From positions 1,054,001 through 1,118,000 of the forward strand of contig NC_014011.1 in the NCBI RefSeq assembly GCF_000025885.1: 64,000 nucleotides of DNA, given 5' to 3'. Positions 2,316 through 55,132 of this stretch are shown piece after piece. This DNA comes from Aminobacterium colombiense DSM 12261 (GTDB lineage Bacteria; Synergistota; Synergistia; Synergistales; Aminobacteriaceae). The stretch's first letter is position 1. The number at the start of each line of letters is the position of its first letter. The position numbers were made by a program, and so were the translations under genes. Below the pieces are notes generated by a model. It ran no database searches, was not told the DNA's origin, and saw only the letters and a program-made list of their open reading frames with translations.

Positions 2316-3827
2316 TTAGCGATTAAGAAAGTCTTTCAAGACATCCCCGATAGTAATCGAGGGCTCTTCTTCATGGAATGTTGGCTGCTGTTTTTGCCTG
2401 CTCTCTTCTGCTTTCTGAGCGAGACGTTTCTTTTTCTCTTCTTCTCGATTCTTACGAATCTCTTCTTCGAAGAGAGCGCTAATACTTAGTCTCATTCTTC
2501 GCTCTGCAGGATTAATTTCAATGACCCGCGCTAAAACTTCCTCGCCTTCAGACAATACGTCTTCGGGCTTGTCTACACGTTTTGTGCTCAGTTGAGAGAT
2601 ATGGATGAGCCCCTCAACGCCTTCTTCCACTTCTACAAAGGCACCGAAATCAGCCAGCCTGACAACTTTAACAGTAATATCCTGTCCTTTGGTATATCTT
2701 TCCTCTATTCCTGTCCAAGGGTCATTAAGCTGTTTGTAGCCGAGGCTCATACGTTTTTTCTCCGCATCCACATCAAGAACCACAACTTCTACATTCTGGC
2801 CCTTTTTAAGGACATCACGTGGATGTTTAATACGCGCCCAGCTAAGGTCACCAATATGGATAAGCCCTTCAATGCCAGGCCCCACTTCTACAAAAGCCCC
2901 AAAGTCTGTGACATTTGTAACTACACCAGAAGCTTTGTCCCCAATTTTCCAGTTTTCTTCTACAATGCTCCAGGGATCTGGCTGGGTTTGTTTTATGCTG
3001 AGGGAAACACGGTTGTTTTCCTGCTCTATACCAATAACCTTTACCTTTACGGTTTCACCTTTTTTAACAACTTCTTTCGGTTTTACATTGCGCTTCCATG
3101 AAAGCTCGCTAATGTGAACAAGACCATCGATGGGGCCAAGATTGATAAAAGCGCCGAAAGATGTAATGCTGCTTACCCTGCCCTCAAGAATGTCTCCCTC
3201 TGAAACTGTTGTATAAAATTTATTCCGCTGCTCCTCTACTGCTTCTTCAACAAGCATTCTTCTTGAAAGGACAAGACGTCTCTTGCGTCGGTCTTTCTCC
3301 AAAAGTTTTACATCAAAGACTTCTCCCACAAATTTACCGGGGTTCACCCCTCGTCCCTCTTCAGCAAGATGGGAAATAGGAATAAACCCTTCGAGATTAA
3401 AGCAGTTGACCATCAATCCGCCCTTAACCTTGCGTATCCCTCTCACTGAAATAAGATCGTGAGAAGAAACAAAGGATTCCAACTCAGCCCAACGCCTGTC
3501 AAATTCACAGCGCCAGCGGCTTACCAGAAGCTGAGCATCTTCTCCGTGGCGTATATTGATGACCTGCACTTGAATTTCATCATTAATTGAGGGCTCTTCT
3601 TCCTCTTCAACTAATATTTTATGAGTCCACTCTCTTCGAGGAAGAAAACCTTCACACTTATATCCTACATCCACGAGCCAACCATCTTCATTTGCTCCAA
3701 CAATTGTCCCTGTTACAACTTTCCCTTTGTGAATTTCCTCTCCCGCATATTTCTCGAGCATGGATTCCATATCCATATTTTCGAAATTTTCGGTTGTTTT
3801 AACATCATTATTCATTTCTTCCATCAT
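2316..3827 (-). CDS. rpsA: S1-domain RNA-binding protein, ribosomal protein S1-like
   Basis: A 503-residue protein with five S1 (OB-fold) repeats. Repeats three to five are close to the consensus, with [18 protein letters not shown] and DFGAFVEVE motifs, each followed by a GL(V/I)HI segment. The first two repeats are more diverged. The C-terminal 60 residues are highly charged and Lys/Glu-rich. It lies 19 bases after ispH; ispH-rpsA neighbours, or even fusions, are known from Clostridia. A GGAAGG sequence precedes two adjacent ATG codons. It probably helps mRNA binding on the 30S subunit, but whether it is a full S1 equivalent cannot be told from sequence alone. Confidence 0.9.
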
Positions 3828-3846: not shown

Positions 3847-4686
3847 CTACCTGCGTGATGACAATGTATTTTTAAGCTGACTAATCAGCCAATCCGGAGT
3901 ACTGGCCCCGGCTGTGATTCCTACTCGCGCCTTACCTGATAACCACCTCCTGTCCAATTCTTCAGCGTGTTCTATCCACACAACGTCAATTCCGGAAAAG
4001 CGGGCTATATCATACAGCTTCCCTGTATTTGCGCTGTTCCTGCCCCCCACTACTATAATACCATCTACAAATTGAGCTAGCTTGCGAGTGGCATCTTGTC
4101 GTTCACGAGTTGCATTGCAAATCGTGTTATAGACGCGCATTTCCTGAGTTCTGAGCGCGAGCTCTGAAACAATGGCTGCAAAAACCTTACTATCCTGTGT
4201 TGTCTGTGATATTACTCCTAATTTAGCAGTTTTACCAATCTCTGTGACGTCCTCTTTTTTTTCTATGACTGTAGCCTTGCCCTCAACTATCCCCTGAAGA
4301 GCTTTTATTTCTGGGTGATTCCCGTTACCGATGATACAAATTTTATATCCTTCCCGAGCAAGAAGCTTTATTCGCTCCTGAGCTTTTTTAACAAATGGAC
4401 ATGTCCCATCTACTATGTGAATGGAGTGTTTTTGAAGAGTGGAAAAGAGTTCTGATGATATCCCATGGGCGCGAATAAAGATACGGGATAACGGGGGAAT
4501 CATATCGGGGGAGTCAACAACAACAAGGCCCTTCTTCGCAAGTCTCTCAACCTCCTGTGGATTATGTATGGGCATGCCGAGAGAATATATGGGGCCTTCA
4601 TCGCTCAATATTTTTTCAAGGGTTTCTATAGCTCTGCGAACGCCAAAACAAAAACCCGTAGGGTCAGCAACTATTATTTGCTTCAG
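3847..4686 (-). CDS. ispH: 4-Hydroxy-3-methylbut-2-enyl diphosphate reductase, CTG start
   Basis: Last enzyme of the MEP isoprenoid pathway, an oxygen-sensitive Fe-S reductase that makes IPP and DMAPP. The first conventional start in this frame (TTG 4608) would remove the essential first cluster cysteine. The frame continues upstream without a stop and encodes [17 protein letters not shown], the normal IspH N-terminus. The only plausible initiator is CTG at 4686, which overlaps the miaA stop (CTGA) and has AAGGGG nine bases upstream. This gives 279 residues, the usual size, with Cys13. The other cluster cysteines are in DGTCPFVKK and NTICNATRE. Conserved substrate motifs [15 protein letters not shown] and SQTTQ are also present. 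Confidence 0.93.
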
Positions 4687-5642
4687 ATTTCGTTGCCCCT
4701 TTCAAGATGCCTTAAACAGGCTTCTAAAACATTTCGCTTCAAATCATCTTCTTTGTAAGCAGAAATATCATACCACAGAGTTGGCAAAAACTTTTTAAAC
4801 CAGGTCATTTGTCTTCTGCAAAACTTTTTAGTTGCGCTTATGTCTCCTTCGACAGCTTCTTCTTTTGTTAATTTCCCACGAAGATAAAGTGATATTTCCT
4901 TATATCCGAAACCCTGCATGGATGGAAACCGCTCATCAAAACCATGATGTAAAAGCCATTCCACTTCTTCTATAAAGCCTCCATCGAACTGTTGATGGAC
5001 ACGTTTCTCTATAGCGTCGAAAAGAAGTAGTCTAGGCCTATTCAACCCTAAATAAAGCACATCATAATATCCTTTTCTTTTTTCTTCGGAGGAATACCAC
5101 CATGTAGCATTTTGTCCTGTTAACTTGTAAATTTCAATAGCCCGGCTTACACGACGCACATCGTTAACATGAAGCTGTGAGGCTCTTTTCGGATCAATCG
5201 CGCTCAGTTGGTCATGAAGAGCCTGGTTTCCATGTTTTGATGCAAACTTTTCAAGTTCATCAGTGAGTTTTCTATCCCTAGGAAGGTCTTTCGTCAGAAC
5301 TCCTTCAAAAAGCGCATGGTAATAAAAAGGTGTTCCTCCCACAAAAAGGGGAATTTTCCCCCGATTCATGATTCGCTCAATCGCCGCCATGCTTTTGTCC
5401 ACAAAATCTGCAGCAGAAAAAACTTCGTCAGGATCCACCACATCAAGCATATGATGTAAAATGTGCTGCCTTGTCTGGAAGGTTACTTTATCAGTACCCA
5501 CATTCATATATCGATAGACTTGTCTTGAATCCACAGAGATGACCTCGGCCTTTAACGTTTCTGCTATTTCTAAGCTTAATTTGGTTTTCCCCACTGCTGT
5601 GGGGCCAATAATAGCAAGAATTGGCAGCTTCCCCTTCATCAT
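4683..5642 (-). CDS. miaA: tRNA dimethylallyltransferase
   Basis: Adds the dimethylallyl group to A37 of tRNAs that read codons starting with U. The P-loop GPTAVGKT is at residues 13-20, followed by DSRQVYRYM and the GGTPFYYHAL motif typical of the family; 319 residues is normal. The start ATG at 5642 overlaps the mutL stop, and its own stop overlaps the ispH CTG start, so mutL, miaA and ispH are probably translationally coupled. Its substrate DMAPP is the product of the next gene, ispH, which gives the order some metabolic sense. Confidence 0.96.
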   Translation of the reverse strand: MMKGKLPILAIIGPTAVGKTKLSLEIAETLKAEVISVDSRQVYRYMNVGTDKVTFQTRQHILHHMLDVVDPDEVFSAADFVDKSMAAIERIMNRGKIPLFVGGTPFYYHALFEGVLTKDLPRDRKLTDELEKFASKHGNQALHDQLSAIDPKRASQLHVNDVRRVSRAIEIYKLTGQNATWWYSSEEKRKGYYDVLYLGLNRPRLLLFDAIEKRVHQQFDGGFIEEVEWLLHHGFDERFPSMQGFGYKEISLYLRGKLTKEEAVEGDISATKKFCRRQMTWFKKFLPTLWYDISAYKEDDLKRNVLEACLRHLERGNEI

Positions 5643-41494: not shown

Positions 41495-42541
41495 ATGCGA
41501 TTAACAGAACTCTCTAAAACAAGTGGCTGAGCAGCCAAAATAGGTCCGGCGGACCTGGAAAAGATTTTGCGGGATCTCCCTCCCGTAAAAGATGACCGTA
41601 TTATTTCGACATGGGCATCAGGAGAAGATGCGGCTCTTTGGATCATTGATCAGAAGCGTCTTGGCATATTGACCCTGGATTTTATAACACCTATTGTGGA
41701 TAACCCAAGAAAATGGGGGGAAATCGCTGCGTGCAACTCCATAAGCGATGTTTTCGCCATGGGTGGACGTCCGATAGTGGCCCTAAATATCGTGGGCTTC
41801 CCTGTTAAAAAACTTGATATAGAGGTATTGCGGCAAGTTCTGGAAGGCGGCTACGCAAAAGTCAGGGAAGCAGGGGCTTTTCTAGTAGGAGGCCATAGTG
41901 TAGAAGACGATGAACCTAAATATGGCCTTGCGGTGTATGGAGAAGTGTCCAGAGATCATCCATGGCAAGTTATAGGATCCATGCCAGAAGACGCCCTAAT
42001 ACTGACAAAGCCGGTAGGGACAGGCGTTATAGCTACTGGAATCAAAGCGGACATGATCGAAGATCCTATGGGACCAGAGGAAGCCATACGCTGGATGACA
42101 ACACTGAACAATGTTCCCCTTGTTCTTCCGCAGCACCTTCTTGATGAGGTTCATGCCTGTACAGATGTAACAGGTTTTGGCCTAATAGGTCATGCCCTTG
42201 ATATGCTTTCAACCAAAGAACTGAATCTATGTCTCGGCCTTCATAATGTTCCTCTTCTTCCCGGGGTCATAGAGCTGGCAGAGAGCGGGCTCGTACCTGC
42301 AGGAACGTATAACAACAGAATCCAGTACGAGAATAGTGTTGTCGAAATTGAAACTTTGCAGGAAGAAAGGGTCGACATGCTTTATGATGCCCAGACATCA
42401 GGCGGATTGCTTCTCTCCGTTCACAAAGATCATGTGCCGGCGGTGATAGCCGCTTTAAAAGAAGCTGGTTTCGAAAAAACTGAATGTATCGGTTATTTCA
42501 AGAAAGGGCAGGGACAGATTGAAATTGTCCATAACGTTTAG
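41495..42541 (+). CDS. selD: Selenophosphate synthetase containing selenocysteine
   Basis: Makes selenophosphate, the selenium donor for selenocysteine and selenouridine. From ATG 41495 the frame reads MRLTELSKTSG, then TGA at 41528-41530, then AAKIGPADLEKIL and the rest of SelD without a break (348 residues). The TGA aligns with the catalytic Cys17 of E. coli SelD, so it encodes selenocysteine at residue 12, as in many SelD proteins of the SGUAAKIGP type. A start downstream of the TGA (TTG 41567) would lose the catalytic residue and the lysine. Later motifs include LTLDFITPIVDNP and GGHSVEDDEPKYG. selA, selB and selC must be elsewhere. Confidence 0.95.
41528..41556 (+). other. Selenocysteine UGA and candidate bacterial SECIS hairpin of selD
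   Basis: Eleven bases after the TGA an exact six-base-pair hairpin forms, AGGTCC, loop GGC, GGACCT (41542-41556). Position fits a bacterial SECIS, which SelB reads just downstream of the UGA. The apical loop is small unless the top C-G pair opens. Confidence 0.8.
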
Positions 42542-55035: not shown

Positions 55036-55132
55036 TGTTTCTAGATTCCTCCCTCTTCTTGACCTGATAGAATTCTACAGGGTATCTTTATAAATATATA
55101 GATCATATAACTTTAAGAAAGTGTGATAAACC
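55036..55132. promoter_or_regulatory. Divergent ackA/tmcAL region
   Basis: Ninety-seven AT-rich bases. On the plus strand a TTGACC and a TATCTT 18 bases later could serve tmcAL. Minus-strand signals for ackA are not clear. No hairpin is seen. Confidence 0.45.

Follow-up and report, generated by a model that had tools for sequence, protein, structure and literature searches.

Start codons other than ATG, GTG and TTG that are kept throughout a bacterial genus are already known but rare, and the CTG proposed here for ispH of Aminobacterium is a well-supported candidate for a new case. The best described example is sigR of Streptomyces, for which a GTC start, together with its ribosome-binding site, is reported to be conserved in 32 of 34 species, and was demonstrated through stop-codon mutants and the mature N-terminus of the protein, and found to be repressed by IF3 (PMC5472188). 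The ispH case is similar in the conservation of its CTG and putative ribosome-binding site across a genus, but differs from sigR in the codon used, in concerning a metabolic gene, in the overlap of its proposed start with a stop codon, and in being proposed from sequence alone. A second precedent is infC, the gene for IF3, which likewise has a widely conserved non-canonical start. According to the same source this start serves IF3 autoregulation (PMC5472188), a role with no known counterpart in ispH.

Of the NTG codons, CUG is the one that bacteria shun at translation starts, and the cause of this avoidance is described as unclear; in E. coli it gives 0.86% of AUG expression, and its share of bacterial initiation codons is 0.024% (PMC11497404). 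In mycobacteria it accounted for 0.03% in a selected leadered library (PMC4633059), and in triplets of close genomes AUG was replaced by CUG at 2 of 61,358 ancestral starts, and UUG by CUG at 1 of 2,468 (PMC5622118). Ribosome profiling of E. coli with tetracycline reported CTG at six of the 67 new sites analysed, and the three CTG cases listed there had signal at the original site too (PMC4909307). The ispH of Aminobacterium differs from these E. coli sites in lacking a canonical alternative before its conserved N-terminus.

Short overlaps between genes are reported to couple their translation, and a distance of about 20 nt almost abolishes the coupling; the -4 nt overlap that joins miaA and ispH is one of the two commonest arrangements among termination-reinitiation pairs (PMC10666635). 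In Aminobacterium this overlap reads CTGA, a string absent from the main text of that article. No published CTG start, whether for ispH, in Aminobacterium or at miaA-ispH overlaps, was found in a limited literature search, conducted mostly at the level of listings.

The miaA-ispH locus of Aminobacterium colombiense

The locus lies in a 64-kb stretch of the genome of A. colombiense DSM 12261, referred to below as the window, and its features are collected in Table 1. An earlier note on this DNA had proposed a CTG start for ispH, and had described this CTG as overlapping the miaA stop codon as CTGA, AAGGGG as standing nine bases before it, and the N-terminus bearing Cys13 as encoded only upstream of the first ATG, GTG or TTG of the frame; the letters and coordinates bear out this description. 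Downstream of the in-frame TGA, the ispH frame continues AAG GGG CAA CGA AAT CTG AAG CAA ATA ATA GTT GCT GAC CCT ACG GGT TTT TGT, with no ATG, GTG or TTG between the upstream stop and the conserved N-terminus, the first of these codons being the TTG at 4608.

Table 1. Features of the miaA-ispH locus, in window coordinates
Feature	Position	Strand	Evidence or remark
miaA, with stop	4683..5642	-	TIGR00174, 273.4 bits against a cut-off of 148.65
19-base block holding the putative ribosome-binding site	4692..4710	-	invariant in three Aminobacterium genomes
TGA, in-frame, closing the ispH frame upstream	4702..4704	-	sequence reading
AAGGGG, Shine-Dalgarno-like	4696..4701	-	9 bases between AAGGGG and CTG
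Proposed ispH start codon CTG	4684..4686	-	conserved N-terminus not preceded by any canonical start; CTG also in G001 and G002
miaA stop TGA	4685-4683	-	CTGA 4686-4683 forms a 4-base overlap with the ispH CTG
ispH CDS read from CTG, with stop	3847..4686	-	TIGR00216, 282.3 bits against a cut-off of 187.85
Cys13 codon in the GFCFGV motif	4648..4650	-	translation; alignment with 3dnf
TTG, first canonical in-frame start, codon 27 from CTG, downstream of Cys13	4606..4608	-	
Ribosomal protein S1 homologue gene, next downstream of ispH	2316..3827	-	PRK06676.1 (NCBIfam model), 511.2 bits against 368

Read from the CTG, the IspH protein matches TIGR00216 over model positions 1-279 of 282, i.e. at full length. 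Its GFC, TCP and TIC motifs, whose three conserved cysteines we take to be the cluster ligands, are all present in the translation and aligned with those of the solved IspH chain 3dnf, and the GFC cysteine, presumably the first in sequence of the iron-sulphur cluster ligands, is residue 13 in both proteins as counted on the alignment. This cysteine is retained only with a start upstream of TTG 4608, and IspH begun at that TTG would be expected to be inactive because the cluster cysteine is lost.

The stretch upstream of the TTG behaves as coding sequence. Over codons 2-26, the window genome (G000) differs from the two other Aminobacterium genomes by 10 synonymous and 1 non-synonymous codon differences (G001) and by 10 synonymous and 7 non-synonymous differences (G002), and 23 of 31 residues of the N-terminal stretch are identical in all three. 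The first canonical in-frame codon falls at codon 27, 33 and 23 in the three genomes, and this differing placement argues that none of them is a conserved start.

A single IspH match and an ispG gene are present in the window genome, and a search of this genome gave no match to HMG-CoA synthase, and IspH is therefore expected to be functional. ispH is thus probably essential to the cell, in which case even a weak start must suffice.

Conservation in Aminobacterium and other Synergistota

All three Aminobacterium genomes examined carry CTG at the same site, with no canonical start before the conserved N-terminus. IspH of the window shares 77% identity with that of G001 and 68% with that of G002, and the start regions in these two genomes read AAGGGGCAACATAATCTG and AAGGGGCAACGAAATCTG, respectively. 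A pattern with CTG ten codons before GFCFGV was present in 3 of 81 family genomes, which are precisely the Aminobacterium three, and a wider pattern with any base followed by TG at that spacing was present in 22 of the 81; both patterns cover one fixed spacing and are uninformative on family genomes with other spacings.

A search of 59 genomes yielded IspH in 58. Of these 58 Synergistota ispH genes, 54 have a canonical start that precedes the GxC motif by 8-40 codons, and the four that do not are the three of Aminobacterium and one other. In that other gene (G019, locus L138) the only canonical codons stand five and one codon before the motif; as it has neither a well-placed canonical start nor a CTG there, unusual ispH starts also occur without CTG. 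In this genome, which belongs to another member of the Synergistaceae, an AT-rich sequence separates miaA from ispH, and the only upstream ATG stands five codons before GFC; damage, a shorter N-terminus and another odd start are alternative explanations.

The overlap with miaA was surveyed at 58 distinct loci (the IspH set and four Synergistaceae loci, with identical loci counted once), and the miaA stop was located by script in 47 of them. An ATG, GTG or TTG occupies the same 4-base (-4 nt) overlap at 19 of the 47 loci (ATG at 7, GTG at 9 and TTG at 3), one of which, L029, also has an ATG 5 nt past the miaA stop. CTG occupies the overlap at five loci. Three are those of Aminobacterium, with no other start there, and the other two are L016 and L030; ispH starts elsewhere in the remaining loci. 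The nearest relative outside the genus (G007, IspH identity 57%), which the script failed to pick up, carries TTGA at the overlap. The earlier note had suggested looking for ATG at this place in relatives. Outside the genus, ATG, GTG or TTG stands in the overlap in the 19 loci and TTG in G007; within the genus the codon is CTG in all three genomes. The canonical starts of relatives in the same overlap support the proposed position of the ispH start. These comparisons establish that no canonical start is available to Aminobacterium ispH, that the proposed site is homologous to canonical starts of its relatives, and that the CTG is conserved in the genus.

In the two other Synergistota with a CTGA overlap, L016 and L030, the miaA stop is followed after 2 nt by a canonical ispH start. 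A canonical start was present 8-40 codons upstream at 74 of 76 loci (L035-L110); L063 was unreadable by the motif, and L046, from a deltaproteobacterial metagenome-assembled genome (MAG), was without such a start. In L046 the ispH CTG (locus position 2219) lies as CTGA over the stop codon of an upstream gene, which we take to resemble cmk, and no canonical start occurs within 40 codons. The similar locus L037 has GTGA where L046 has CTGA. Going by its contig name, L046 has a coverage of 1.87, and its CTG may therefore be an error.

Sequence constraint at the end of miaA

The block GCATCTTGAAAGGGGCAAC, followed by AATCTGA, is invariant in the three Aminobacterium genomes. In miaA as a whole, the same codon is kept in all three genomes at 64 of 210 amino-acid-identical codons, and over 19 genes at 1061 of 4313; at the end of miaA, by contrast, all seven of the final amino-acid-identical codons are unchanged across the three genomes. 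Only miaA, one gene of the 19, ends with seven of seven identical codons, and 6 of 4199 windows of seven amino-acid-identical columns are fully codon-conserved, in tests of the miaA end that were chosen after the site had been seen.

The last isoleucine codon of miaA, which contributes the C of the CTG, is ATC in all three genomes. ATC in all three was found in 6 of 266 invariant isoleucine columns, including that of miaA, and ATC is kept in 6 of the 37 isoleucine columns in which it is the majority codon, so that its retention is not extraordinary given an ATC ancestor. A change of this codon to ATA would give ispH an ATG, and a change to ATT would give it a TTG, both silent in MiaA. The case for selection acting on the C of the CTG would be modest, and that for selection on the putative ribosome-binding site is the stronger of the two.

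The usual 16S tail was found in the window genome, and the duplex predicted between this tail and AAGGGG has an energy of -7.3 kcal/mol in all three genomes, which is moderate; the corresponding value for infC is -15.4. No shared RNA structure was found at the start in 100-nt folds from the three genomes, which have z-scores of -1.12, -0.03 and -1.59 and differ in structure, and a structural RNA switch at this site was dropped as a candidate on the same grounds.

Proposed mechanism and alternative explanations

The favoured reading, given a probability of about 0.88, is that Aminobacterium ispH is translated from the CTG at 4686-4684, placed by AAGGGG and fed mostly by ribosomes ending miaA. 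The initiator fMet-tRNA would pair with CUG, positioned by AAGGGG nine bases upstream, and ribosomes terminating at the overlapping miaA UGA would supply most ispH initiation by termination-reinitiation, yielding a protein that begins fMet-Lys-Gln-Ile-Ile-Val-Ala-Asp-Pro-Thr-Gly-Phe-Cys13. The coupling of translation by short overlaps, and its near loss at about 20 nt, favour initiation at the CTG by ribosomes finishing miaA. The pairing of the two genes would also have a metabolic logic, as DMAPP, a product of IspH, is a substrate of MiaA. In the ancestor of the genus, a TTG would have changed to CTG by one T-to-C transition that left the final isoleucine of MiaA unaltered, and the CTG would have been kept since; a TTG ancestor would make the simplest history. 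We infer use of CUG by the ribosome, an output below that of an ATG and, from the overlap, coupling to miaA. Standing against the CTG are the very poor performance of CUG as a start codon and the only moderate strength of the predicted Shine-Dalgarno duplex, together with the unremarkable retention of ATC, the absence of a shared RNA structure and the odd ispH start of G019.

A start at another near-cognate codon, for instance the ATA at codon 4 or 5 (4677-4675 and 4674-4672), is improbable. It has a precedent in infC, which has no ATG, GTG or TTG before its conserved N-terminus in G000 (L143), G002 (L180) or G001 (L181), and which probably starts at an ATA nine bases after GGAGG; moreover, codon 5 of ispH is ATA, ATA and ATT in the three species. 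However, AAGGGG is 18 and 21 bases away from the two ATA codons, neither of which falls in the overlap, and codon 4 is GTT in G002. Among the first twelve codons, the CTG alone is near-cognate in all three genomes and also matches the starts of the relatives in spacing and overlap; the ACG of codon 10 is also common to all three, but a start there loses most of the first conserved strand. Production of IspH as a MiaA-IspH fusion, through a -1 ribosomal frameshift shortly ahead of the miaA stop codon, would require no start codon at all, and the ispH frame is indeed open upstream of the CTG to 4701, overlapping the end of miaA. This explanation is considered very improbable, since no classical X XXY YYZ heptamer was seen by eye in the miaA frame over 4704-4683, and since ATG, GTG or TTG occupies the same overlap in many relatives, where the genes are thus separate.

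Still less credence is given to a start at TTG 4608 with a truncated IspH lacking Cys13: although this TTG is the first canonical in-frame start, the stretch upstream of it is conserved as protein with many synonymous changes, the position of the first canonical codon varies by genome, and the product would lose the GFC cysteine. The least probable of the alternatives is that an ATG, GTG or TTG was turned into CTG by faulty sequencing or assembly. A single base change would suffice to yield a canonical start, but the CTG is identical in three independent assemblies, two of which were produced by different technologies if the genome assignments are right (PMC3035294, PMC11008193), and the A. 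colombiense DSM 12261 genome is finished, with a stated error rate below 1 in 100,000 (PMC3035294). Such an error, which the earlier note had named as a finding that would overturn its proposal, is excluded, unless all three assemblies share it, by the presence of the codon in the three genomes of the genus, and the proposed CTG start of ispH is an inherited feature of Aminobacterium.

A further suggestion, which builds on the CTG start and is regarded as unlikely, is that the CTG has been selected as a weak, IF3-sensitive gate, with IspH made almost only by ribosomes finishing miaA. The supply of DMAPP would then be tied, at a constant low ratio, to miaA translation and to the level of IF3, in the manner of the GTC of sigR.

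With or without such a gate, translation of ispH from the CTG would mean that a gene of central metabolism keeps CUG genus-wide with ATG one silent base away, offering a natural test of whether reinitiation relaxes start-codon choice. Annotation restricted to ATG, GTG and TTG would remove the catalytic N-terminus of IspH.

Start codon use in the rest of the window

The window contains 121 open reading frames of at least 100 amino acids, 107 of which have a match in G001 or G002, and the non-overlapping set compared with both sister genomes comprises 58 genes. By a threshold of our own (at least 6 identical residues, making up at least 40% of those aligned, upstream of the first ATG, GTG or TTG), five of these 58 were flagged, namely ispH, rpsA, hypF, selD and ackA. 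In ackA and hypF a conserved leader or ribosome-binding sequence precedes an ordinary start, and rpsA was judged to be of the same kind from sequence listings; the frame of selD passes through an in-frame TGA that would encode selenocysteine. ispH is the sole gene without a usable start among the 58, and generally lax initiation in the genus was rejected as an explanation on this basis. All three genomes encode a tRNA-Met that has the usual initiator anticodon stem and a CAU anticodon; an altered initiator tRNA was likewise rejected, the stem being ordinary in each. The probable non-canonical start of infC suggests, without proving, that IF3 discriminates start codons in Aminobacterium too.

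Two of the flagged genes have features of separate interest. In selD (selenide, water dikinase; 41495-42538, forward strand), the TGA at 41528-41530 lies inside the conserved N-terminus in all three Aminobacterium genomes and likely encodes selenocysteine, as expected of a selenocysteine-containing SelD; a gene finder would shorten the gene. The leader of ackA (acetate kinase), at about 55036-55088 on the reverse strand ahead of the ATG at 55035-55033, shows strong conservation among the three genomes in the part preceding the ribosome-binding site, and is perhaps a promoter or regulatory element.
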